64,000 nt of DNA from NCBI GenBank assembly GCA_026645815.1, contig JAPKMR010000003.1, forward strand, positions 62,001 to 126,000. Reading direction: 5' to 3'. The notes under the pieces were generated by a model. It saw only the letters and a program-made list of their open reading frames with translations, made no database searches and was not told where the DNA came from. The stretch comes from Anaerolineae bacterium (lineage in GTDB: Bacteria > Chloroflexota > Anaerolineae > B4-G1 > SLSP01). Each line of letters starts with the position of its first letter. The stretch's first letter is position 1. Shown piece after piece: positions 290 through 62,152 of this stretch. The position numbers and the translations under genes were made by a program.

Positions 290-382
290 ATGTACGAGAC
301 CCCGATGATCGTTTTCGAAGGCGAGCTGGAAGTCCATGCTGGCAGCCCTGTCCAACTGGATGTGTTGCCTGGGCTCGAGTAA
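290..382 (+). CDS. 30-aa peptide MYETPMIVFEGELEVHAGSPVQLDVLPGLE, candidate RiPP (lasso-like) precursor
   Basis: ATG at 290 is preceded by AAGGAG with about 8-nt spacing; YxxP-x-I-x3-G leader-like motif; sits inside the longer 176..382 ORF in the same frame. Confidence 0.55.
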   Translation: MYETPMIVFEGELEVHAGSPVQLDVLPGLE

Positions 383-442
383 TTGACGAGCAGATAGGTT
401 CAGCATTCGCGGAACTCCGACGTGAAATGTTTTGCGGATGCA

Positions 443-475
443 AGAAGGGGGGAGAGACGCTCTTTCCCCCCTTCT
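443..475. terminator. Strong hairpin between peptide gene and sigma factor gene
   Basis: AGAAGGGGGG (443-452) pairs with CCCCCCTTCT (466-475); no clear T-run follows. Confidence 0.55.
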
Positions 476-541
476 ACTATGCAAGCCAGTGAAATAACCC
501 CCAGATTTTGAACCACATCCGCTTTTTGCACGACTATATTT

Positions 542-1111
542 ATGACGGATAAGATGCTTCAGCCCCTAAGTGACGTCGTACTCCTACAATGCATTAGCGA
601 AGGCAAAGAAGCAGCTTTCGAAGAGCTCTATCAGCGGTATAACCTGCCGGTGTTCAACTATCTCGTGCGCCTGACCCACGACAACGGTGTGGCCGAAGAA
701 CTGTTGCAAGATGTGTTCTTGATCATCTGGCAAGATGCAGGTTCATTTCGCGGTCATGCCAGCGTCAAAACATGGCTTTTCCGTATTGCGCACCATCGTG
801 CAGTCTCTTGGCTACGCCAACGTCCCGGAAACATCCAGGGAGATTTTGAGGATGTGGGCATCACCGACATCGCAACCGATCCTGAAGGAAAAGTCATCGA
901 AGCCTGGACGGTCAAACAAATTCGAGCGGCGCTTGATAGCCTCTCAAACAAGCACCGTGCTGTATTGGAACTGGCTTTTTTTTATGACTTACCCTATACG
1001 GAGATTGCGCAAGTCATTCAATGTCCAATAGGCACGGTAAAAAGCCGTGTCAGCTATGCACGGCGCTGTTTGCTCCAGTATCTGAAGAAACATGGGTTGA
1101 GCGAGCTCTAG
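542..1111 (+). CDS. RNA polymerase sigma factor, ECF/sigma-70 family
   Basis: FEELYQRYNLPVFNYLVRLTHD...AEELLQDVFLIIW (region 2) and YTEIAQVIQCPIGTVKSRVSYARR (region 4). Confidence 0.93.
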   Translation: MTDKMLQPLSDVVLLQCISEGKEAAFEELYQRYNLPVFNYLVRLTHDNGVAEELLQDVFLIIWQDAGSFRGHASVKTWLFRIAHHRAVSWLRQRPGNIQGDFEDVGITDIATDPEGKVIEAWTVKQIRAALDSLSNKHRAVLELAFFYDLPYTEIAQVIQCPIGTVKSRVSYARRCLLQYLKKHGLSEL

Positions 1112-1117
1112 GGAGAG

Positions 1118-1816
1118 ATGATTATGAGAGACCGATTCAGGTCCAGTATCAAAAAACTGGAATCCTACCTGCCCTGGTACGTCAACCGCACCCTCACTGC
1201 TGCTGCAAACCAAAAGGTGACGCAAGGCTTACAAGAAAACCCAGAGCTGGGCCATTCGTTACAGGAATGGGAAACAGTGCAGAGCCTGGTGAAAAAGCAA
1301 CCACTCCAGCAGCCCTCACCGGCAGTTCAGGAACGCTTGATGGCCCGCGTGCGCGCCTGCAATTTACCCCAGCGGAACATCATACCACTCTGGTTTAGCC
1401 GCGCCTGGGGCATAACGCTTGCAATCACGGCATTGTTGTTTTTGTGGGTGATGTTGCAGCCTGGCGTCCAGTTGCAGTGGAGCGTAAACCAGGCTCAGAT
1501 TGCCGCCTTCAACATCTACCGAGCGCCAGCAGGCAGTGTGGATTTTGCCCTGCTTTACGCAGCCACTGATCCCCCCAGAGCCAGGGAATACCGCTTTGTG
1601 GATACCGCCCTATGGAATGGGCGTGCGCATAGCTATCGCATCGTCGCGCTGGGTGCAGAGGGACAAGCGCTTTTCAGCAATGAGGTCATGACCGGAGCAC
1701 ACACAGCTCTTCCAGGCCAACTGGCGGTCATACTGACCAGCATCATCATTGGCTATGGTGCGGTAATGCTTATTGAGAATTGGCCCACTCCACCTCGCCG
1801 CTTTCAAATCTGTTGA
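1118..1816 (+). CDS. Anti-sigma-like membrane protein with fibronectin-like ectodomain
   Basis: N-terminal LPWYVNRTL...LQEWETV typical of anti-sigma cytoplasmic domains; TM near residue 90; IYRAP...YRFVDTAL...YRIVAL extracellular repeat; second TM; directly follows sigma gene with GGGAGAG RBS. Confidence 0.65.
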   Translation: MIMRDRFRSSIKKLESYLPWYVNRTLTAAANQKVTQGLQENPELGHSLQEWETVQSLVKKQPLQQPSPAVQERLMARVRACNLPQRNIIPLWFSRAWGITLAITALLFLWVMLQPGVQLQWSVNQAQIAAFNIYRAPAGSVDFALLYAATDPPRAREYRFVDTALWNGRAHSYRIVALGAEGQALFSNEVMTGAHTALPGQLAVILTSIIIGYGAVMLIENWPTPPRRFQIC

Positions 1817-1829
1817 GGAGCACATCGGC

Positions 1830-2333
1830 ATGAGGTGGAAAGCGCTTTTAGGGTTTGGCCTTGCGATATTCGTGATCTGTATTGCCTCAGAAAGCGCCAG
1901 CGCCTATGTTCGCTACAATCCCCAGGGTCCAGACCGCCTGCTCTTTCCCGGCTATCAATGGACCGTTTTGGCCGACACCACCACTGAAGAGCTGATCTGC
2001 ATGCGCTGGATAATTGCTCAAAACCCCACCTGGCATTACGCACACTGTCAGAGGGCCGAAGCGCCAGTAGATGCGTGGGTCTGTACCATCGCGGACGATA
2101 TTCCCGACGCCGAAGTGACTTACCAATTCTACAAAGCCTCCGCAGTAAGCGCCTGCGATCTTAACGGCAATACCTCGGAGTGGACTTCCCCTCATACTTT
2201 TGATACTGTTGTTGATTCAATCACCCTGAATAAACCCAATCTACAGACACCCTGTCTGCGTGCCAGTCTGATGGGCTTACTCTGGGTTATCTGTGGCGCC
2301 ATCGCTATCGGTTGGCGCCATCATCAACGCTGA
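1830..2333 (+). CDS. Small secreted/membrane protein with N-terminal signal and C-terminal TM, unknown function
   Basis: ATG at 1830 with upstream GAGGAG; MRWKALLGFGLAIFVICIASESASA signal peptide; C-terminal hydrophobic segment LMGLLWVICGAIAIGW. Confidence 0.6.
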   Translation: MRWKALLGFGLAIFVICIASESASAYVRYNPQGPDRLLFPGYQWTVLADTTTEELICMRWIIAQNPTWHYAHCQRAEAPVDAWVCTIADDIPDAEVTYQFYKASAVSACDLNGNTSEWTSPHTFDTVVDSITLNKPNLQTPCLRASLMGLLWVICGAIAIGWRHHQR

Positions 2334-2356
2334 TTCCTCTCCCTTATCCCCGACCG

Positions 2357-2410
2357 CGGGTGTTTTCGACTTCGGGGCAAAAGTAAGGCGATTACCACGC
2401 GAACGCCTCC
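2357..2410. repeat. Partial dispersed repeat (arm similar to elements at 39481-39642 and 47388-47493)
   Basis: GGGTGTTTTCGACTTCGGGGCAAAAGTAAGGCGATTACCA resembles GGGTGCGTTTTAACTTTGGGGTAAAAGTAAGATGGCTATCA. Confidence 0.45.
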
Positions 2411-2501
2411 CCCTTAATTGATTATGGGTGGCAGGGTCGAGCCTCGCAAAACCCCTCCTCCGAAACTACGGAAAGATGAACAGCCACTTTCCTAAAAATA
2501 C

Positions 2502-2530
2502 TTGACAACCCTCTCACTGAAGGGTATATT
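2502..2530 (+). promoter_or_regulatory. Sigma-70-like promoter for the C25 protease operon
   Basis: TTGACA (2502-2507), 17-nt spacer, TATATT (2525-2530). Confidence 0.8.
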
Positions 2531-2653
2531 CATACTACTTTTGCGGGTAAACACACTGTTGCCCGTGGTATATAAATGGGAAAACGCAACCCAACCAGCG
2601 ATGTGAAGCGGGGCAACCCCTTCAGAGATGGTGATGATAAATGCTTGAGGGTA

Positions 2654-5215
2654 ATGATGAACAAGAAAATTGCTTTTCGTTTGAGCGTGGTTTTGGCGCT
2701 CGTCGCAGTCGGACTCTTGTCAGTTTTGAGCATGGACCTCCCCACACAAGCCACTTTCATCCAGCAACCTGCTGCTCAAACAGCCACTCACGATCCAGTA
2801 CAAGATCCGCCAGATGATTTCTTTGCCCCTTCTCCCGCCGCAGATGCCCAGGCACCGGCAGAACCTGCTACGACCGCCACAATGCTACCGCTTACCTCGG
2901 CCACAACACCCTGGGCACTGCCAGACCCTGTATGGCGAGTCGGCATCACGCAGGATGGACTCTATCACCTGTCTTATGAAACCCTCGCCGCTGCTGGTGT
3001 GCCTGTCACCGAAGCCCTGATGACGAATTTTCAGCTCTGGTATCGGGGGATTGAAGTCGCCATCGAGATTGATGACAGCAACGAAAACGGGCTTTTCGAT
3101 CCAAACGAGGGCCTGATTTTCTATGGCGAGAAGTTTCACGGCAGCACGCAGGATGAGAAATACACAGATGAAAACGTCTATTGGTTGAGCCTGGAACCCA
3201 GCGCTACCGGCAAGCGTATGACATCACGCTCCGTGCTCCCGACTGGCGCTCCGGCAACCGGTATTTGTGTCGCCACGACAGTTGCAGAACAGAATCTGGA
3301 ACATTTTGCGCGCTGGAACAACAACCCCGGCACATCCACTACCTGGTTCTGGAAGCGCATGATTGCGCCACTGGGACAGGTCGTCACCAACACCTTCCCA
3401 ATCCCCTTGAGTAACATCGCCATGACGCCACACACTGCCACACTGCTCATCGAAGTTGCAGGAAGAAGCTACAACGTCTCCGTCAACCCTGATCACCACC
3501 TCAGAGTAACCTTCAACGGCACACTGCTCGGTGATGTTTTCTGGGACGGCGAGGTGGGGTACGTCGTCACACTCGATGTTCCCGGAACGCTTCTGCAAGA
3601 AGGGGATAACACGCTAAGCCTGGCATTAGTCGGGACAGATCTATATCAGGATATCTACTTCGATCGCGCCGAGCTCACGTATCTACGGGAGCCTGTGGCC
3701 ATAGAGGGTGTCCTCACCTGCGAGGTTTCTGAAACCGGCACGCACACTTATACCTTCGCCGGAATGCCCACTCAATCACGGCTCTACGATATCACCGATC
3801 CACTGAATCCGATAAAGCTCACAGATCACCAGGCTTTTACCTTCCAGGATACTGCTGATGCCGGAACACAGTATATCGGCGGCGTGCCATCAGGGGGAAC
3901 CGCAGCCTTCACCATCTACCTGCCGCTGGTGTTACGCAATAGCAGCAACACGGTGCAAAGCGCAACAACCCTACTCTCAGACAATACTTCGACCAACGCG
4001 ACTTTGCCAGCAATGACGATCACGGAGTATCACCCAGATACCAGCCTAATCACCCCCACAAACGGAGCCGATTTGCTCATCATCGCGCCGCATGAGTTCC
4101 ATACGGCACTGCAACCCCTAATCACGCGCCGCCAGACTCAGGGGCTGCGTGTAACCCTGGTAGCAGAGCAGGACATTTATCCGCTCTTCAACGGCGGCAT
4201 CTATCACCCTGAAGCCATTCGCGCCTTCGTCGCCCATACTTATGCAAGCTGGCCCACGCCAGCACCCAAATACCTGCTCCTGGTAGGTGATGGGCACTTC
4301 AACTTCAAGGGTTACGACCCGGAAACTTTCGGCGAACCTTCACGGATTTGGATTCCGCCCTACCTGGAATTCGCCGATCCAGATCAGGGTGAGGTGCCGG
4401 TGGATTCCCGCTTCGGTGACACAAACGGGGATGGCTTACCCGAACTCATGGTGGGCCGTATTCCTGCGAATTCCGAAACTGAACTCACGGGGTATCTCAA
4501 CAAACTGCTGGCATACGATATGCTACCCGCATCCGCATGGATGGAGACGCTATTGCTGGTCGCCGATGACGGCGCCACCACCCAGGAGCCTTATTTTGCC
4601 AGCGGTCTGAATTGGATCAGAGATAACCTGTTCCCCACCTGGGCGGTGAGCAAACAGGTGTACATGCAGGACTACTGCCCCAAACCACCCGCGAGCTGGA
4701 CCGCACCTTGTCCCGCAGCCACGATGGCATTGACTCAGACCTGGAGCCAGGGCGCGGCGCTATTATTCTATGCCGGACATGGAGCGCCTGGTGTGTGGGC
4801 GAACGAACCGCTGGTGCGTGGCTCACAGCTGGCGACGCTCCAGCCGGCTGCGGGGCAACCATTTATCATTGCGCTAGATTGCTGGGATGGTTTCTGGATG
4901 TTCCCCCATAACGTCAACGTGGGTGCGGGACGCGAAGCCATCTCCATCGGCGAACGCGCGACCATGGGGTGGGACGATCGTGGTGCCATCGCCGTCTTCG
5001 GACCCGCAGGTCTGGGATATATGACCGTGGAAGAGCAATTGGCGCGTGCGATGATGCAAGAAGCTTTCGAGCGCGGAGAACGTCGCGTGGGAGAGCTGAC
5101 GCAAGCAGGCAGGGCAGCCATCTGGAATCTAGGTTCAGGAAAATACCTTGCCCGCACCTACACCCTTCTGGGTGATCCTTCCATGCAATTGCGCCTCCAA
5201 GATATCACCCAATAA
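2654..5215 (+). CDS. Secreted peptidase C25 (gingipain/PorU-like) protein
   Basis: ORF 2576..5215, likely start at MMNKKIAFRLSVV; DGLYHLSYETLAAAGVP prodomain-like; PKYLLLVGDGHFNFKGYDP; FYAGHGAPG (His) and IALDCWDGF (Cys). Confidence 0.85.
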   Translation: MMNKKIAFRLSVVLALVAVGLLSVLSMDLPTQATFIQQPAAQTATHDPVQDPPDDFFAPSPAADAQAPAEPATTATMLPLTSATTPWALPDPVWRVGITQDGLYHLSYETLAAAGVPVTEALMTNFQLWYRGIEVAIEIDDSNENGLFDPNEGLIFYGEKFHGSTQDEKYTDENVYWLSLEPSATGKRMTSRSVLPTGAPATGICVATTVAEQNLEHFARWNNNPGTSTTWFWKRMIAPLGQVVTNTFPIPLSNIAMTPHTATLLIEVAGRSYNVSVNPDHHLRVTFNGTLLGDVFWDGEVGYVVTLDVPGTLLQEGDNTLSLALVGTDLYQDIYFDRAELTYLREPVAIEGVLTCEVSETGTHTYTFAGMPTQSRLYDITDPLNPIKLTDHQAFTFQDTADAGTQYIGGVPSGGTAAFTIYLPLVLRNSSNTVQSATTLLSDNTSTNATLPAMTITEYHPDTSLITPTNGADLLIIAPHEFHTALQPLITRRQTQGLRVTLVAEQDIYPLFNGGIYHPEAIRAFVAHTYASWPTPAPKYLLLVGDGHFNFKGYDPETFGEPSRIWIPPYLEFADPDQGEVPVDSRFGDTNGDGLPELMVGRIPANSETELTGYLNKLLAYDMLPASAWMETLLLVADDGATTQEPYFASGLNWIRDNLFPTWAVSKQVYMQDYCPKPPASWTAPCPAATMALTQTWSQGAALLFYAGHGAPGVWANEPLVRGSQLATLQPAAGQPFIIALDCWDGFWMFPHNVNVGAGREAISIGERATMGWDDRGAIAVFGPAGLGYMTVEEQLARAMMQEAFERGERRVGELTQAGRAAIWNLGSGKYLARTYTLLGDPSMQLRLQDITQ

Positions 5216-5293
5216 GGACAGTATTAACCCGTGTAGCCAACGCTTCGCAGGTCAAAGGCTACTCAATCCAAGAGTAAGGGAGAATTCTTCTGC

Positions 5294-6826
5294 TTGGTAA
5301 CGCAATTTGCGGATCAATGGCCCGAGTTACTGGCTGAAACGGCGACAAATGCCTATCGCCTACATGTGCGTGGGCGAAGTATGTGGCCCACGCTGCAACC
5401 CGGAGACGAGCTTCATGTCGTAAAGATCGAAGCGCAAGCGCTGCGCCCCGGCGATTGGGTTGTCATCCGCGCCCCATCAGGCCCTCTGGTTCACCGCTTT
5501 CTGAAGTTCACACGCGATGGGGGATTGCTCACCAAAGGAGATGCGCATCGCGCGCCGGATCCACGTTGGCCCCAAGAAGCGTTATTGGGACGCGTCACTG
5601 CAGTTGTTCGGCATGGCAACACCATGCCTGTACGCACGAATTCCTTCAGGGAAAGGATGAAAACTATGTTTCACCGAATTATAGCCGGCATCTGGCAACA
5701 ACGGCGCTCGCGCCGGCACATCGCAACACACCTCTTGCTTTTAGTAGTTTTATGGCTCAGTCTGGCATCACAACCCCTGTTAGCAGCGGTGACGCTCGCG
5801 GACTTTGGGGCGATAGCCCAGACCGCCGACATCAAAGTGTACTGGGAGACTGCCAGCGAAGTCAATATGTCGGTCTTCTATGTGTTGCGCGCCCCGAGCG
5901 AGACGGGAACCTATAATCGCATCTCCAACTTCATACCGGCGGAAGGTGACCTTGGCGGAGCCATCTATGAATACGTTGACGAGGATGTTGAAGCCGGTAC
6001 GACTTACTACTACAAACTAGAGGCAGTTGAAACTAATGGGTCCTCCGAATTTCACGGGCCTGTTTCAGCGCGCATTCCACTGCCGGGAGAAAACAATACC
6101 CCCACGCCCAGTCCTACTCCGACCCTCACACCAACACCAACTCCCACTACCCCACCCCCGACAACGCAACCCGGTCAACCCACAGCGACACCCGAACCTT
6201 ACGTGCGCTTCTGGACCGATCAAACCACCGTGCAAGCGGGACAGTGCGTCACCCTGCAATGGGAAACACGCGAAATCAGCGCGGCCTTTCTGGATGGATT
6301 AGGCGTTCCAGGAGTCAGCGCAAAAACCGTCTGCCCCTGTGAAGGTCAGACTTATACGCTGCGCGTTACGTATCGGAATGGGAGCAACGAAGACTTCACG
6401 GTCGCGCTCGCCGTGCAGGGCGTATGCACACCGGCGCCTCCCGGCAGCACAGCGACGCCAACCTTCCCGCCACCCGCAACCCTCACGCCGGGCCCGAATG
6501 AGACGACGCCGCCCACTGTGGAGAATGTCCCCCCCACGCCCACTCCGACATTGCAATCCCAAGCGCCCACCCTCGCTCCTGCGCCGCAAATCGAGCCAAC
6601 GACCTCCACCGGAGGCGAGGGAATGACCCCTGAACCCCTCACCATGGCGCCAGAAACAGGACCGACCGCAGCAACGATAACGACACCCACGCTGATACGC
6701 CCGGCGCTCGGAGGACAGGATGCGCCAACATCGTCATCAGGTTGGCTGTGGGGAGGTATCGGCGCCGGTGGGCTGCTAATCCTTCTAGGAGGAGCAGGAA
6801 TCTGGTGGATGCGAAAACGCTCATGA
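5294..6826 (+). CDS. Fusion: S26-type signal peptidase-like domain + fibronectin-like/Pro-Thr-rich surface protein with C-terminal TM
   Basis: GRSMWPTLQPGD, GDWVVI, VHRFLKF, LTKGDAHRAPD (S26 boxes); then LLLLVVLWLSLASQPLLA; VYWETASEVNMSVFYVLRAP; TPTP-rich linkers; C-term GGIGAGGLLILLGGAGIWWMRKRS. Confidence 0.75.
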   Translation: MVTQFADQWPELLAETATNAYRLHVRGRSMWPTLQPGDELHVVKIEAQALRPGDWVVIRAPSGPLVHRFLKFTRDGGLLTKGDAHRAPDPRWPQEALLGRVTAVVRHGNTMPVRTNSFRERMKTMFHRIIAGIWQQRRSRRHIATHLLLLVVLWLSLASQPLLAAVTLADFGAIAQTADIKVYWETASEVNMSVFYVLRAPSETGTYNRISNFIPAEGDLGGAIYEYVDEDVEAGTTYYYKLEAVETNGSSEFHGPVSARIPLPGENNTPTPSPTPTLTPTPTPTTPPPTTQPGQPTATPEPYVRFWTDQTTVQAGQCVTLQWETREISAAFLDGLGVPGVSAKTVCPCEGQTYTLRVTYRNGSNEDFTVALAVQGVCTPAPPGSTATPTFPPPATLTPGPNETTPPTVENVPPTPTPTLQSQAPTLAPAPQIEPTTSTGGEGMTPEPLTMAPETGPTAATITTPTLIRPALGGQDAPTSSSGWLWGGIGAGGLLILLGGAGIWWMRKRS

Positions 6827-8850
6827 AACACCTGAATCTGCTATCACTCCTGGCGCTATTATGGCTCATTCCGACATGCAACCGTAACGCCGTTCCAACT
6901 CCCATCGCAGGTGATTTCGTGCCGGGAGAACACCAGGCTTTTTTCATTGATGTCGCTGAAGAGGGTGGTGTTTGGCTGGCACCGGATACACTGAATGCAC
7001 TTGGGGTAGATGTAAACGCGGCTGACGCGCCAGCACTGCGGCTTTCCTGGAACGGACAGACCGTGCCAACGCGCAGCGTCGAAGATGAAGGAAAATGGGG
7101 GCTTTTCTTCTTTGCGCCCGCTTTCCACACGCGCTACACTCAGGAAACCAGTTTCTTGCTAGAACTCGACGCCACAGATACCCCGATTCCCACACAGACG
7201 CCGGCGGAGGCGACGATGCCTGCTCTTCCGGGGTTGACGCAAGTCACCTGGGAAGAAGACCGGCGCTATTTTCCCCAGGCTACTGCGGAAATTCCGTGGC
7301 TATGGCAACCCATCTATGCGCCCGGAGAGATTGCCCACACGCTCAGCCTCACCAACGCGGTAGCAGGTCCCATGACTGTGACCGTGCGCTTGTGGAGCCA
7401 CACTCGCTTCACGCCGACGCCGGACCACCGGTTGCAGCTCTATTGGGATGAAGAGCTCAAAGGGCAATGGGAATGGGCAGGGCAGGGCATGCAGACCCTG
7501 ACTGCAAGCTGGGATGAAGCCACGCCCCAGGGTAATCATACACTTACCCTGAACACACCTGCTGTCAGCGAGAGCGGCATAGCCATCGTCTGGATTGATG
7601 GATGGGATATCACCTATCCTCATGCCTCTGTACCCCCAAACGGATTGTTACAGGCGCAGGGCGCTACACTCAGCGCCGGAGAAGAGGGGTTGATGGTCCT
7701 CGATGTCACCGAAGGGCTTGCACCTGTTCATCTGGGGAAGACTGCTCCGGATGGGAATATCGGTGTGGAACCAGGGCATCGCTATTGGATCGGCAATTTT
7801 GAGGCAGCAACCACACCCGTGAGGGTGCGCCCCCCTCTGAGCCTGGATGTAGCTTCACTGGCGGATACAACTTATCTGGTGATTGCCCCAACTGCCGCCC
7901 ACGAAACCCTGGAGCCTTTGCTGGCACACCGGCGGGCAGAAGGGCTGGTGACCGCCATGGTCACGCCACAGGCAATATACGATACCTTTGGCGCAGGGCG
8001 TGCCGAACCGGCAGCCATCAACGCCCTCGTGCAAAGCTTGCCAGCATTGCGCTACTTGTTGCTCGCCGGCGATGCCGTCGCCGACCCGGCAGGCTACGAT
8101 ACTGAAGGTCAGCAATTGCGCGTGGTTGCTCCCTTCACCCGCACAGCGGTGCTCGGCGAGACTCCAGCCGATGGGCGCTACAGTGTCAATGCTGAGGGTT
8201 TTCCCACCGTTGCCGTGGGACGCTTCCCTGCCGAGACGGTCGCGGGGATCAAAGCCCTGGTCGAAAAGACCTTACTCTGGGAGACCACGGAGGAGACCCC
8301 AACGGTGGTCTTGGTCACCGATAATGAGCTCCGTTTTAGCGACATGCTGGATGCAATCATACCGCTGATCTCGGGCGGGGAGGACGCTGAGCGCATAGAT
8401 TCCGGCGAAGAGCGTAGCCGCGAGCGGTTGCTGGAAGCCCTCAATCGCGGACCAACGTGGTTCAATTACACCGGACATGGCAGTCTCACCCGGCTCTGCG
8501 ATGAGGAGATTCTGACCATCAATGACGGAGAGAACTGGAAGCAGCCTTCAGTTGTGGTTGCCTGGACCTGCCTCGCCGGGCATTTTGCACATCCGACGCA
8601 GGCCTCTATCGCAGAAGCCTGGATGCAAACCGCCGGTGGTGGCGCAGTAGCATTCCTGGGCCCGGTAGGAGAAACGACCACCTTCGAGCAGCGTCCTGCA
8701 GCCCAGGCTTTCTATGCGGCGTTGCCGCAACAACGCCGCATCGGTGACGCCTGGCTCAAAGCCATCCAAACCGAGACCGGCGCGCCTGATGTGCGCTGGG
8801 GTTTCCTTGTTCTGGGGGATCCCGCACTAGATGTCAAACCAGGACCTTGA
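6823..8850 (+). CDS. Peptidase C25-like protein, possible lipoprotein
   Basis: Start overlaps previous stop as ATGA (6823-6826); LLALLWLIPTC; LRYLLLAGDAVADPAGYD; FNYTGHGSLTRL (His), VVAWTCLAGHF (Cys). Confidence 0.8.
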   Translation: MKHLNLLSLLALLWLIPTCNRNAVPTPIAGDFVPGEHQAFFIDVAEEGGVWLAPDTLNALGVDVNAADAPALRLSWNGQTVPTRSVEDEGKWGLFFFAPAFHTRYTQETSFLLELDATDTPIPTQTPAEATMPALPGLTQVTWEEDRRYFPQATAEIPWLWQPIYAPGEIAHTLSLTNAVAGPMTVTVRLWSHTRFTPTPDHRLQLYWDEELKGQWEWAGQGMQTLTASWDEATPQGNHTLTLNTPAVSESGIAIVWIDGWDITYPHASVPPNGLLQAQGATLSAGEEGLMVLDVTEGLAPVHLGKTAPDGNIGVEPGHRYWIGNFEAATTPVRVRPPLSLDVASLADTTYLVIAPTAAHETLEPLLAHRRAEGLVTAMVTPQAIYDTFGAGRAEPAAINALVQSLPALRYLLLAGDAVADPAGYDTEGQQLRVVAPFTRTAVLGETPADGRYSVNAEGFPTVAVGRFPAETVAGIKALVEKTLLWETTEETPTVVLVTDNELRFSDMLDAIIPLISGGEDAERIDSGEERSRERLLEALNRGPTWFNYTGHGSLTRLCDEEILTINDGENWKQPSVVVAWTCLAGHFAHPTQASIAEAWMQTAGGGAVAFLGPVGETTTFEQRPAAQAFYAALPQQRRIGDAWLKAIQTETGAPDVRWGFLVLGDPALDVKPGP

Positions 8851-9422: not shown

Positions 9423-9908
9423 ATGAGACTGGAATTTACGCTGAATCACAAACCGATGTTATTGGAAGAGCTGGCTGATGATATCTTGCTCCTGGATTTA
9501 CTGCGCGAGGTTTTGGGGCTTACCGGCACCAAACGGGGTTGCGATACTGGTTCCTGTGGTGCCTGCTCAGTACTGGTGGATGGGAAACTCACCCGTGCCT
9601 GTCGAACGCCTGCGGCAAAAGTCGCCAACTGCCACGTGATTACCATCGAAGGGCTGCGTGCCCCCGATGGTGGTCCCAATGATATGCAACGCGCCTTTGT
9701 GGAATTTGGAGCGGTGCAATGCGGCTTCTGCACGCCGGGCATGGTTATCGCCGCCGAGGCATTGCTACTGAAAAACCCGAACCCTTCACGTGAGGAAATC
9801 CGCAAAGCCATCATGGGCAACCTCTGTCGCTGCACAGGCTATCAGCAGATTGTGGATGCTATTGAAGTCACCGCGCAGCGGCGCGCCGCTGCCCAGAGAG
9901 GAGAATAG
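9423..9908 (+). CDS. (2Fe-2S)-binding subunit of xanthine dehydrogenase/aldehyde oxidase family
   Basis: GCDTGSCGACSVLVDGK and GAVQCGFCTPGMV...NLCRCTGYQQIVDAI cysteine motifs. Confidence 0.93.
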   Translation: MRLEFTLNHKPMLLEELADDILLLDLLREVLGLTGTKRGCDTGSCGACSVLVDGKLTRACRTPAAKVANCHVITIEGLRAPDGGPNDMQRAFVEFGAVQCGFCTPGMVIAAEALLLKNPNPSREEIRKAIMGNLCRCTGYQQIVDAIEVTAQRRAAAQRGE

Positions 9909-9910
9909 GC

Positions 9911-12193
9911 ATGGCAGACCTGAAGGTCATCGGCAAGCAAGAGACGCAAAATGTGGATGGTTTGGCGCGCGCGATGGGCGAGGCTCGCTATGTCTGCGAT
10001 ATGCACATACCGGGTATGCTGATCGCCAAAGCGCTGCGGAGTTCCCTGCCCCACGCCCGCATTGCACACCTCGATGTGGCGCCCGCTTTGCAGGTACCGG
10101 GTGTAAGAGCGGTCATCACCCAGGCGGATTTCGAAGGGCATAGCAATTTTGGTTGGCCCATCAAAGATGCCTACGCACTGGCTTATGAGCGTGTGCGCCA
10201 TGTGGGTGAAGCCATCGCCGTCGTCGCGGCAGAAACCGAAGCCGCGGCACAGGCTGGTGTAGCCGCCATCAAGGTGACACTGGAACCTCTGCCTGTCGTA
10301 AGCGATATGCACCGAGCGCTCGACCCCGATGCGCCAATCATCCCACAGGCACCCCCTACCGGCAAAGGCAATCTGTGCGATGTCTCGATTTTGCGCAATG
10401 GCGACCCCGCGCCCATTCTAGCGGAATGCCCGGTCATCCTGGATGAAAATTACTTAACGCCGCACCAGGAACATGTCTACCTCGAAACCGAAGGAGCGCT
10501 TGCCATTCCAGAACCCGATGGAAGTGTGACCATCTTCTCGAACAACCAAAGCCCCTTTATCAACCGCGATACTGTTGCCGCCCTGATCGCGCTCCCCCCC
10601 GAGCAGGTTCGGGTAATCCAACCGCCCATCGGCGGCACCTTTGGCGGCAAAGATGATGTACTCTACCAGACCTCAGCGCAGGTTGCCCGATTAGCAATGA
10701 TGACGGGACGTCCGGTCCGGCTCATTTTCGAGCGCACCGAATCCATGATCGCATCTTATAAGCGGCAAGCGATGGACATTCACCTGCGCCTAGGCGCCGA
10801 TGAGCAAGGCAATCTGCAAGCCGCGCAAGCCACCATGTTAGCCGACAGTGGCGCCTACGCTTCCATGACCTCTATGGCGGCATGGCGTGCCACGATGCAC
10901 GCGGCGGGCGCCTATCGCTACCGGGCAGTGCATGTGGATACACAGGTGCTCTACACCAATAACGGCTACTCAGGCGCCTTCCGGGGCTTCGGCAATACCG
11001 CTGCTGTAGCGGCGATAGAAATTGCCATAGATGAACTCGCCCACCGGTTAGGCCGTGATCCGATAGAGTTCCGACTGCAAAACTGCCTCCGCACAGGTGA
11101 TCGCACGATGGCCGGCGACGAACTCTCCCAAGAGGCGGGATTGACAGCGTGCCTGGAATGGGTACGCGAGCGCGCCGACTGGGATCATAAGCGCGCCAGC
11201 TATGCGGTACAGCCCGCCGACGCCGCCGTGCGACGCGGACTTGGCGTTGCGGCTTATTTCCATGGCAGCGGTTTGGGCGGTGAAGGTCTGGATTATGCTG
11301 CGAGCACCATCGCGGTCGAAGCCGATTACAGCATCGCGGTAACCTCTGGGCTAACCGATTTCGGGCAAGGTAGCCGCACGGTCTTTACACTCATCGCCGC
11401 GGAGACGCTTGGGGTGGCCCTTGAACGCGTCCATATTCTGCGCCCCGATACACGCACAGCGCTCGACTCAGGTCCTACGGTAGCCTCACGCTCCTCCATC
11501 ATCGGCGGCAATGCTGTGGCGCTCGCGTCACAGAAGCTACTGCACCTGCTCACACTCGCTGCCGCAGATGCCTTGCAGTGTGCGCCCGAACAGATTCTGC
11601 TCGAAGGGGAAACCTTCATTGGTCCCAGCGAGGAACCGCTCACATTTGAACAGGTTGTGAATCACGCGCGCGCCATGGGCTTTCAACTTTCGGTAGCAGC
11701 ACGCTGGCAAATGCCAGAGATTCACTGGGACTTTGAGACCGGCACCGGGAAGCCGTACTTTGGCTATGTTTTCGGAGCACAGATCGCCGAAGTAGAGGTG
11801 AACATCAAGACCGGAAGAGTGCGCGTCACGGGAATCTGGGCGGCGCACGATGGAGGAAAAATTCTCTATCCACGCGGCGCCATGGGGCAGATGTATGGCG
11901 CCATCGCGATGGGGTTGGGATTTGCGCTAATGGAAGGCTATCGCTTCGAGAATGCGCTCCCTCAGACGACCAATCTCAGTACGTATCGCATACCACGCGC
12001 CACGGATGTGCCGGAAATCGAGGGAACCTTTATCCAAACACAGCAGGGGTTGGGACCCTTTGGGGCGAAAAACCTTGCTGAACCGGTGATGGTGGGCACA
12101 GCGCCAGCGATTGCCAACGCCGTGTTCCAGGCAACCGGCATCCGCGTACGACAATTCCCCATCACCCCAGAGCTGCTCAAAGCGAAGGGGTAA
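9911..12193 (+). CDS. Molybdopterin-binding catalytic subunit, xanthine dehydrogenase family
   Basis: GGTFGGKDDVLYQ, YSGAFRGFGNTAAVAAIE, DFGQGSRTVF, GAKNLAEPVMVGTAPAIANAV. Confidence 0.92.
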   Translation: MADLKVIGKQETQNVDGLARAMGEARYVCDMHIPGMLIAKALRSSLPHARIAHLDVAPALQVPGVRAVITQADFEGHSNFGWPIKDAYALAYERVRHVGEAIAVVAAETEAAAQAGVAAIKVTLEPLPVVSDMHRALDPDAPIIPQAPPTGKGNLCDVSILRNGDPAPILAECPVILDENYLTPHQEHVYLETEGALAIPEPDGSVTIFSNNQSPFINRDTVAALIALPPEQVRVIQPPIGGTFGGKDDVLYQTSAQVARLAMMTGRPVRLIFERTESMIASYKRQAMDIHLRLGADEQGNLQAAQATMLADSGAYASMTSMAAWRATMHAAGAYRYRAVHVDTQVLYTNNGYSGAFRGFGNTAAVAAIEIAIDELAHRLGRDPIEFRLQNCLRTGDRTMAGDELSQEAGLTACLEWVRERADWDHKRASYAVQPADAAVRRGLGVAAYFHGSGLGGEGLDYAASTIAVEADYSIAVTSGLTDFGQGSRTVFTLIAAETLGVALERVHILRPDTRTALDSGPTVASRSSIIGGNAVALASQKLLHLLTLAAADALQCAPEQILLEGETFIGPSEEPLTFEQVVNHARAMGFQLSVAARWQMPEIHWDFETGTGKPYFGYVFGAQIAEVEVNIKTGRVRVTGIWAAHDGGKILYPRGAMGQMYGAIAMGLGFALMEGYRFENALPQTTNLSTYRIPRATDVPEIEGTFIQTQQGLGPFGAKNLAEPVMVGTAPAIANAVFQATGIRVRQFPITPELLKAKG

Positions 12194-14022: not shown

Positions 14023-17000
14023 TTATGCCTGCCCCTTCAGATAGGCAATCATCGGGTCGGTCACTAGCGGCACGACATCACCAATCATGTGAGGCATAAG
14101 ATTGTCCATCACCTTGGGCATGAGCTTGGGCATCTGCTCGGCCATATAATCGGGCATGGGAATCTGCGCTGAAACCCGCGCCAACATCGTATCCATCACC
14201 TTAGGCATCATCATGGGCAGTAATTTGGGAAAGAGCACCGGGAACATCGGCTTCATCATTGCCAACGCGCCGGGGACTTTTCCCATCGCTCGCATCATCT
14301 TGCCCATACCCAAAGGCATCGCATCAATCAGCTCGGGCCACATCGTTCCCATCAGCTCAGCAAAACCCTGTGGCGTCATCAACGCAATCATTGCCTCAAA
14401 GACCGCCCACTGCGCTCGCACCTCCGGGTGCGGATCGGGCAGATCGGTGTAACCCAAACGCTCCGCGCAGAAGCGCGCGAGATCTACAATTTCCACAGGC
14501 GATTGCGTCTTCTCACGTGACACACGGAACTGGAATTCACAGCAAGGGCAAGCCGCCAGCATCTTCTGTGCTCCCGCTTCGGCGGCTTCATCCAGACGGT
14601 GCTTTCCCACCACTGCAGCAACGGGCGGTTCTTTGATGAGCGTGAGCACACTGCCACAACAGTGCGCGTCATCGCGGTTGTATTCCATCTCAACGTATTT
14701 CACGCCGGGAATAGCTTGAATCACCGCACGCGGCTCCTCATAGATATGAGAAACACGTCCCATGTGGCAGGAATCGTGCCAGGTAACCCGCACCTCCGGC
14801 GCCTCACCCTCAGGAAGAGGCGGGAAGGCAAACTCACCCGTCTGCAATTGCTCCGCGACAACTTCGCTATAGTGTTTTGCCGTGATCGTGTACGGAATGC
14901 CCAGTTTCTTCGCCCACTCCGGATAGACATGGCGCCACATCATATTGCACGCCGGGCAGGAGGTGATAACCGTATCCGCCCCCGTTGCCTCTACGGCAGC
15001 AATATTCTTCCGCATGGTCTCCGCAAAGACTTCCCACTTGCCCGCCACAAGCATCGGTGTGCCACAACAATTCTCTTTTTTGCCCACATAGGTGAAATCC
15101 ACACCGGCTTCGTCTAACAGACGCACACTCGCCATGGCGATATCGTGCTCCACATAACTGGCTGTGCAACCGGCAAAGTATACGGCTTTCGACTTCTTGC
15201 CCACACCGTGTTTCGCTTTCAACTCGTCCGGGAACCAGGCATCGCGATCCTTCCGATAGCCCGCCCAGATATTTCCCTGATCGGTGAGCGCCGCCGCCAT
15301 CATCTCGAAGGGCGGGAAAGTCATGCGACCCTCTTCTTCAATCAGCTGCCCACGTAACTTCATCCACGAAGGTTCGATAGGCAGATTCGCCGAGCAACGC
15401 AGGTTACAGAGCTCACAAGTCGTGCAGACCAGGAATGTATCCACCATGAACTGATCCCACTTCTCACGTCCCTCAATATACTCGCGCAACCAGTACCACT
15501 TGCCGCGCGGGCTTTGGCTTTCCCAACCACGCCCATAATACTGATCGCACTCCTGCACACAATAGCCACACTGCGAACATGCATAGGCATACCAGGCAAC
15601 ATCAGCAGGGATGCCCTTAATGGATTTTTCGGGCAGTTTCTCACTGACGTCACTCGTCACCGCGTTACCAAAAGGACGCAAGAGTGGTTCAAAAGCATTG
15701 GCGGCGATCAAGGCGTTGCTAATGAGTGCGTTACCCACCACCTTGCCGGGGTTGAGTATCCCCGCAGGATCGGCTTTGCGCTTGAATTCCTTCAACATCC
15801 GCACGCGCTCCGCACCAAGAATCTTGTCCGCCATCTTGGTATAATACAATCCGGTGGCATAAGGACGACCACCATACTTTTCAGCGATACGCGCGATGGT
15901 GAGGGAAAGCGGGAAGACAAAGTTATAGGTAAACTTACGCTGATCTGCGGGGATGAAGCCCAGAATGACCACTTCGGGTTCGCCTTTCGGATTGTGTCCG
16001 TGGCGCACCATGACGCCTTCCTTAACAACCGGTTGCCCCACCTTCTGCTCCACCTCAGCCAGCATAGATCCCAACCCAGAGAGCGGCACGACAACTTCGG
16101 CAGGTACCAGGCTAGGTCCCAGACGCTTCACCGTCATAATGCGGAAGCGTTGTGACCACTCATGTTGAGCAATCTCATCGCTGAGCAACACGGCTGTGCA
16201 CTTCTCGCTCTGCATCCGCTGCGCAATCGCGGCGCGAATCTGCTCCGAATCCTGCTGACGGAAAGCTATGGTTACAATGTAGGTCTCAGGCAGTAGCACG
16301 CGATGTTCGGTAGGATGCCCCTGGTGGGTTTGCAGCGGCGCCTGATTTTTCAGCTTTGCCATCTGTGGGTTGATGAAATGCATGGACCAAATCGGCAAGT
16401 TGGCGGCGAGGAAACCTTCGAGCATGTATTGCAGGCTGTGCGCCTCAGCACAGCCCAACGACATAATCTCAAGGGGCATATCGGGCATCACTTTGATGGT
16501 GAGCTGCGTGATAAAACCGGTAATACCCTCGGCCTCGTAGATCATGTCGAGGTCATCGCCTTCAAACAAGCCCAACGAGCCATCACCCAAAATCACGCGC
16601 GCGCTGAGCACATTCTCACGGAACCAACCCGCTTCAAGCGCGCCAAATCCAGCGCCGCCTTGCGCCAACCAACCGCCGGCAGTAGCGGAGGGATAGCTGC
16701 TGGGATAAGTGCGTAGCGTTAAGCCATGTTTCTTGAGCTCGCGGTCCGCTTTCTCCCAGACAATACCCGCTTCAAGCGTCGCTGTCAGAGCATTGCGGTC
16801 TACTGCGATGACTTTATCCATGCGGAAAAAGTCCACCACAATACCGCCCTTCACGGGCAGCACGCCGCCATAGCCGGAAGTAGCCTTGCCGCGTGGCACC
16901 AGGGGAATGCCCGCTTGCCCTGCCCATTGAATCAGCGCGACCAGTTCGGCTTCAGATGCAGGCTGTACCACCGCATCCGCCATCGGCGTGCCAATCAATG

Positions 17001-61828: not shown

Positions 61829-62152
61829 TTATGTCCCTGCTTCGGATGAGGGAGCTTGTGGTCCAAAACGGCGATAATTCACAGCCAGTTTATCCATAAT
61901 CGCCTGTTCAAGGTCTATCTTCGTCAAATACGCCAGTTGGAGCAGGTAAAGCGCTACGTCGGCTAATTCTTCTGCCAGCGCCTCGGGAAGCGCCTCTTCA
62001 CCCCATTGGAAATGTTCCAGCACTTCCGCGGCTTCCAGCGAAAGCGAAATTGCGATGTTGCGCGGGTTTTGAACTAGAGGACTGTCGGCAGCGTACCAGC
62101 CCATCGCAGCGACGAAGGTATTCATTTCAGCAGTCAAGTCTTTGATATCCAT
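61829..62152 (-). CDS. MazG-like nucleotide pyrophosphohydrolase
   Basis: NIAISLSLEAAEVLEHFQWG...LAEELADVALYLLQLAYLTKIDLEQAI. Confidence 0.92.
   Translation of the reverse strand: MDIKDLTAEMNTFVAAMGWYAADSPLVQNPRNIAISLSLEAAEVLEHFQWGEEALPEALAEELADVALYLLQLAYLTKIDLEQAIMDKLAVNYRRFGPQAPSSEAGT

Follow-up and report, generated by a model that had tools for sequence, protein, structure and literature searches.

A conserved, putatively RiPP-like peptide gene linked to a pair of PorU-like C25 proteases in Anaerolineae

The stretch of DNA analyzed here (the window; 64,000 nucleotides) covers positions 62001–126000 of its contig, within the 4.9-Mb draft genome of an uncultured member of the Anaerolineae. 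Between positions 290 and 8850, a small peptide (PEP), an ECF sigma factor, an anti-sigma-like protein, a small protein (SEC3), a C25 protease (C25A), an S26-FN3-TM protein (S26F), and another C25 protease (C25B) are encoded on one strand (+). Every gene named in an earlier note on this DNA is present there, in the order and shared direction that it gave. The unit starts about 1.6 kb ahead of the window, where three same-strand genes lay outside the view of that note. Directly upstream of the window (locus L036) are an FN3-membrane protein (14362–14835), an HprK-like kinase (14832–15620), and a PqqD-type RiPP-recognition protein (15604–15879). The last matches PF05402 over the cut-off (8e-15), and its nearest NCBIfam model is the lasso PqqD (2e-10). 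The kinase matches TIGR04355 (3e-8) and ScmC (6e-6), all below cut-off, and on these scores the HprK-like assignment is weak. These three upstream genes moved our view of the locus toward RiPP-type chemistry. Directly downstream are ordinary molybdenum hydroxylase genes (2Fe-2S and large subunit; window 9423–12193), which by conservation lie outside the module. A search with a single protein gave four named close relatives, which are metagenome-assembled genomes labeled Anaerolineae bacterium.

PEP (290–382, +) is a 30-residue YxxP precursor-like peptide, MYETPMIVFEGELEVHAGSPVQLDVLPGLE, recognized through its HMM family and its substitution pattern. Relative to the orthologue in L041, nine codons differ, eight synonymously and one non-synonymously, and seven of the nine base changes fall at codon position 3; by this pattern, PEP is a real coding gene under purifying selection. 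HMM searches find the family in 70 of 396 Anaerolineae genomes (70+ members), with the consensus YxxPxIxYEGxLExxAGSP. Y, P, E, A, G, and P are invariant across 29 aligned members, and these include the Tyr and Pro of YxxP, a characterized (lasso) RRE recognition motif (PMC12710340). The residue after the Ala-Gly is Ser in 65, Thr in 5, and Tyr in 1 of the 71 members parsed. No Pfam or NCBIfam model matches the family. In an even sample of 400 genomes of the phylum, PEP occurs in only three, two of them in Anaerolineae, and the sole PEP found outside the class stands before a C25–FN3–C25 run (L206). In the window's genome, 411 bp separate PEP from the PF05402 protein, which places a short precursor-like peptide near an RRE protein, and PqqD is found within six genes of 19 PEPs. 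Most of the PEP loci sampled show no C25, PqqD, or HprK within six genes, so PEP needs no adjoining module. Solitary PEPs of family f37 (L183, L186–L202) are flanked on one side by an nrdJ/nrdR/ftsZ/ftsA-like gene run and on the other by a large, lamin-tail-like secreted protein, with no C25 or PqqD seen nearby. In L089, L094, and L101, the gene 19 bp after PEP encodes a radical SAM/SPASM maturase whose N-terminal region is PqqD-like; in L089 and L094, the next gene encodes a Cys-rich, Tat-like protein that contains PDxC repeats.

Downstream of PEP, the sequence from 383 to 541 folds with −57.6 kcal/mol (z = −5.2) and contains a terminator- or attenuator-like hairpin at about 442–474 (+); a hairpin stands at the matching place in three relatives (L041, L086, and L087). 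It has no Rfam match and is not among the hits of the terminator scan, for which a T run is required. The ECF sigma factor (542–1111, +; Pfam Sigma70_r2 3e-14, r4_2 6e-13) is followed by the anti-sigma-like membrane protein (1124–1816, +), which carries an FN3-like domain between two TM helices. This protein matches NCBIfam putative anti-sigma models at about 1e-6, below their cut-offs, and shares a BLAST cluster with FN3 small proteins; its structure model was discarded (pLDDT 36). The succession of sigma and membrane anti-sigma is that of an ECF sigma/anti-sigma pair, predicted here from sequence, and was seen only in the window locus, L041, L086, and L087, that is, in the window's genus and one neighboring genus. 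SEC3 (1830–2333, +) combines an N-terminal signal, a C-terminal TM, and an RHHQR tail; its homologue L098_1 has the canonical TAVTL-TM-RRK tail and adjoins a PEP in G009. Ahead of C25A is a sigma-70-type promoter (TTGACA-17-TATATT, 2502–2530, +; 11 of 12 matches), which is kept in two relatives (L041 and L086). With the sigma/anti-sigma pair seen in only two genera and a sigma-70-type promoter before C25A, the sigma control on which the earlier note built its module is not supported as a defining feature. Sigma and the FN3-bearing anti-sigma may be a lineage-specific regulator that reads the surface through FN3, and their grouping with the module could be due to chance.

C25A (2657–5215, +; PF01364 4.7e-66; likelier start corrected to 2657) and C25B (6805–8850, +; PF01364 3.9e-53; corrected to overlap S26F by 22 bp) are the first and second members of the pair. 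All complete C25 members read retain the catalytic His and Cys of the family. The nearest solved structure to both is PorU (6za2; 1e-9 for C25A and 3e-37 for C25B, the latter with a family profile). Because C25A has an N-terminal signal and most C25B homologues have lipobox-like N termini, both should act outside the membrane. In a midpoint-rooted tree of 50 C25 domains, 21 of 21 first members and 19 of 19 second members fall on opposite sides, in two clades (deep support 94/96) that branch alike internally; nine lone members lie within one or the other. The motif YLPLV(L/M)(R/K), found at the C termini of large secreted Anaerolineae proteins (L037, L045, L052, L055, and L098), also occurs in C25A at about 4000–4060 of the window, just ahead of the catalytic domain, and may be a second signal for sorting or processing. 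The window's genome (G000) encodes three further C25 proteins (C22, C163, and C75) with no S26 or PEP nearby, one of them about 1775 residues long with DUF11-like repeats.

S26F (5294–6826, +) matches an archaeal signal peptidase model (4e-9) and, just under the cut-off, Peptidase_S24 (6e-5). Its S24/S26-type domain (about residues 20–110) is followed by a TM (about 148–166), an FN3 domain (about 165–260), a PT-rich linker, a second beta domain (about 303–378), another PT-rich linker, and a C-terminal TM (485–503) ending in MRKRS. Foldseek supports the FN3 fold, for which alone the structure model, of medium quality (pLDDT 50), was used. The S26 domain resembles the S24/S26 peptidases of the archaeal/ER signal peptidase type and the Ni-SOD maturation protease, with Ser in GxSMxP, His in HR, and Asp in KGD, which we take to be the catalytic residues. 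Unlike in those peptidases, the catalytic domain here stands ahead of the TM or is soluble, and in the window's family, it is fused to an FN3 stalk and a C-terminal TM. In all 26 S26 proteins, no TM precedes the domain; the fusions have a TM after it, with an Arg-rich stretch ahead of the first TM, and nine stand-alone homologues (165–191 residues) have no TM at all. On this topology, the domain is expected on the cytosolic side, in the same compartment as the peptide. The order of type I signal peptidases, an N-terminal TM and then an extracytoplasmic catalytic domain, is seen in none of the 26, and a cytosolic position makes a secretory signal peptidase role unlikely. In this, our reading departs from the signal-peptidase-like enzyme of the earlier note. 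Because the S26 and FN3 parts are split elsewhere, sometimes with a PqqD gene between them, the protein of the window is a fusion of two genes.

Nineteen loci from 11 families carry two C25 genes on the same strand, separated by a few genes. An S26 gene stands between the paired C25s in 15 of the 19, as does an FN3 gene, and the scatter of C25 and S26 genes apart from each other that would have spoken against grouping them was not seen. PEP lies within seven genes of the pair in 14 of the 19 loci, PqqD is near it in 11, and HprK is near it in 6; contig ends account for several of the negatives (L042, L043, and L055). Two more families show the module set (L208 and L206), one of them outside the class. 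Loci in which S26 and FN3 are split keep the order PEP–C25A–S26–PqqD–FN3–C25B (L109, L176, and L177) or are close to it (L173, L172, and L185). PEP and the C25 pair also co-occur by genome (8/15 versus 13/84, p = 0.003, among the matches listed, counted by hand). Together with the two C25 clades, these loci bear out the proposal that the peptide, the two C25s, and S26 form one conserved module, and the comparative evidence from sequence that the parts belong together is strong. Our literature searches returned no earlier description of this gene combination. In L185 (8086–8556, −) and L052 (16224–17186, −), the peptide module has an NTP_transf_5 nucleotidyltransferase as a neighbor, an arrangement shared with phosphoglycosylated lasso clusters.

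How might these parts work together? At the level of sequence, the gene linkage, the catalytic residues, the S26 topology, and the coding and conservation of the peptide are established; we infer leader binding, phosphorylation, the cut site, export, and the C25 substrate. We hold it slightly more probable than its contrary that the module couples a RiPP-like peptide pathway to two extracytoplasmic PorU-like surface proteases. Inside the cell, the PqqD-type protein would bind the YxxPxI leader of the 30-residue peptide, and the HprK-like kinase would modify the hydroxyl residue (Ser, Thr, or Tyr) after the invariant Ala-Gly, or another residue. Lasso precursors are phosphorylated by HPr-kinase homologues (PMC8498205). 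The S26 domain, at the inner face of the membrane, would then cleave off the leader; the cut may fall between Ala and Gly, which would fit the preference of signal peptidases for a small residue ahead of the cut. The product would be exported and meet C25A, which is predicted to be secreted, and C25B, which is lipoprotein-like; these may process the peptide or employ it in the cleavage of FN3/TM-tailed surface proteins. Counted against this reading are the many PEPs with no C25, PqqD, or HprK seen nearby, the weak HprK-like assignment, the 411-bp gap and the sigma genes that set PqqD apart from PEP here, the lack of a dedicated exporter gene in the operon of the window, and the possibility that the C25s could serve only neighboring surface proteins. 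Of the roles named in the earlier note, maturation by proteolysis, whether of the peptide or of proteins at the surface, is still the best reading, with sigma control set aside. Radical SAM RiPP maturases adjoin other PEPs and stand beside the C25 pair in L208; the window's genome has no maturase of the PEP-neighbor type at E≤1e-20, and radical SAM modification was dropped as a core step there.

The RiPP-like parts have relatives in known systems. The HprK-like kinase adjoins a PqqD-like protein, as in SynChlorMet and the HprK-related kinase A/B systems of NCBIfam, but the scores are all below the curated cut-offs, and the Scm models matched here include neither the C25 pair nor the AGSP peptide. 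Lasso and other PqqD-dependent clusters of the paeninodin/pseudomycoidin type (HPr-kinase homologue plus nucleotidyltransferase) share with our loci the YxxPx(L/I) leader, a stand-alone PqqD, the HprK-like kinase, and, in some loci, NTP_transf_5, an ABC exporter, or a radical SAM maturase. If the peptide is cut between Ala and Gly, YxxPxI spans −16 to −11, near the −17 to −12 of YxxPxL in lasso precursors (PMC10368454); a Gly stands at the putative core start, and an acidic residue is often found at core position 7–9. It is nevertheless very improbable that the locus is a lasso cluster in disguise. No B2 transglutaminase (PF13471) passes the cut-off in the 25 PEP-bearing genomes (one sub-threshold match, in G102), and no asparagine-synthetase-like cyclase was recognized by eye among the neighboring genes in the loci read; an S24/S26-type peptidase and two extracytoplasmic C25s stand instead. 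For want of a B2 over the cut-off, we rejected lasso identity. A gathering of unrelated genes by chance seems scarcely more credible, even though C25 and FN3 proteins abound in Anaerolineae genomes (77 of 99 relatives have C25), because the gene set recurs in no fewer than 11 families and in one case outside the class; for C25A–S26/FN3–C25B, chance grouping is refuted.

A different emphasis would make surface-protein sorting the main task, with C25A and C25B cutting and anchoring FN3/TM-tailed proteins (TAVxLxxLxA-TM-RKR) in the manner of PorU in T9SS, and the peptide an accessory or the attached group. PorU, which acts by a sortase-like mechanism (PMC4560394), is the closest solved relative of both C25s, and S26F, the anti-sigma, and large surface proteins have FN3 in common. 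TM-RK tails are commoner in PEP neighbors than in other genes of the same loci (19/136 versus 26/715, odds ratio 4.3, p = 1.4e-5), but the tail expression was written after inspecting PEP neighbors, which makes this p value optimistic and the result suggestive; a looser definition, tested first, gave p = 0.056. In L211 (10242–13070, −), a 942-residue FG-GAP-like surface protein has a TAVTL-TM-RRK tail running in frame into a PEP sequence, but this fusion is one instance only, from an assembled genome, and apart from it, the six apparent long reading frames containing PEP are upstream read-through rather than fusions. Both C25s share with PorU a secreted or surface location, the His/Cys dyad, and matches to NF033707 (2e-55 and 2e-33). 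Unlike PorU, they score 188 and 115 bits against an equivalog cut-off of 420, and the two paralogues flank an S26/FN3 gene in a genome without the T9SS tail family. Por_Secre_tail cargo is absent from G000 and marginally matched in 2 of 12 genomes, and a search for the SprA/Sov translocon had no match in the 12 genomes or in the control genomes. With no cargo tail in its own genome and a PorU score far below the cut-off, T9SS identity was rejected; sorting as the main task is unlikely, though it deserves more credence than the other alternatives. A specific form of it seems improbable, in which the C25 pair would be a transpeptidase that cuts C-terminal TM tails and joins surface proteins to the exported, modified peptide through its new N-terminal Gly (GSPLG...) as nucleophile, the peptide being a covalent anchor or tag; if true, this would be a transpeptidase sorting system distinct from sortase/LPXTG, exosortase/PEP-CTERM, and T9SS/PorU. 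Quite unlikely, too, is a module that modifies or regulates machinery for exopolysaccharide or capsule export or assembly. Wzz/BY-kinase-like and O-antigen-ligase-like genes lie beside the module in L052, L109, L113, and L116, and glycosyltransferase/DUF2723- and DUF4012-like genes lie beside it in L047, L053, L118, and L170 (names that we assigned from sequence), but no such gene adjoins the window's locus or several other modules (L041, L105, and L172).

The preferred reading is thus of a RiPP-like system whose parts are linked and whose chemistry we infer. It would join RiPP-type peptide maturation (PqqD, an HprK-like kinase, and a YxxP leader) to surface proteolysis of the gingipain/PorU type, a link not found in the literature searched. 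The near-invariant positions of PEP predict PqqD binding, modification of the Ser, Thr, or Tyr after Ala-Gly, and cleavage between Ala and Gly. For part of the abundant C25 proteases of the Chloroflexota, this reading would offer a testable role.
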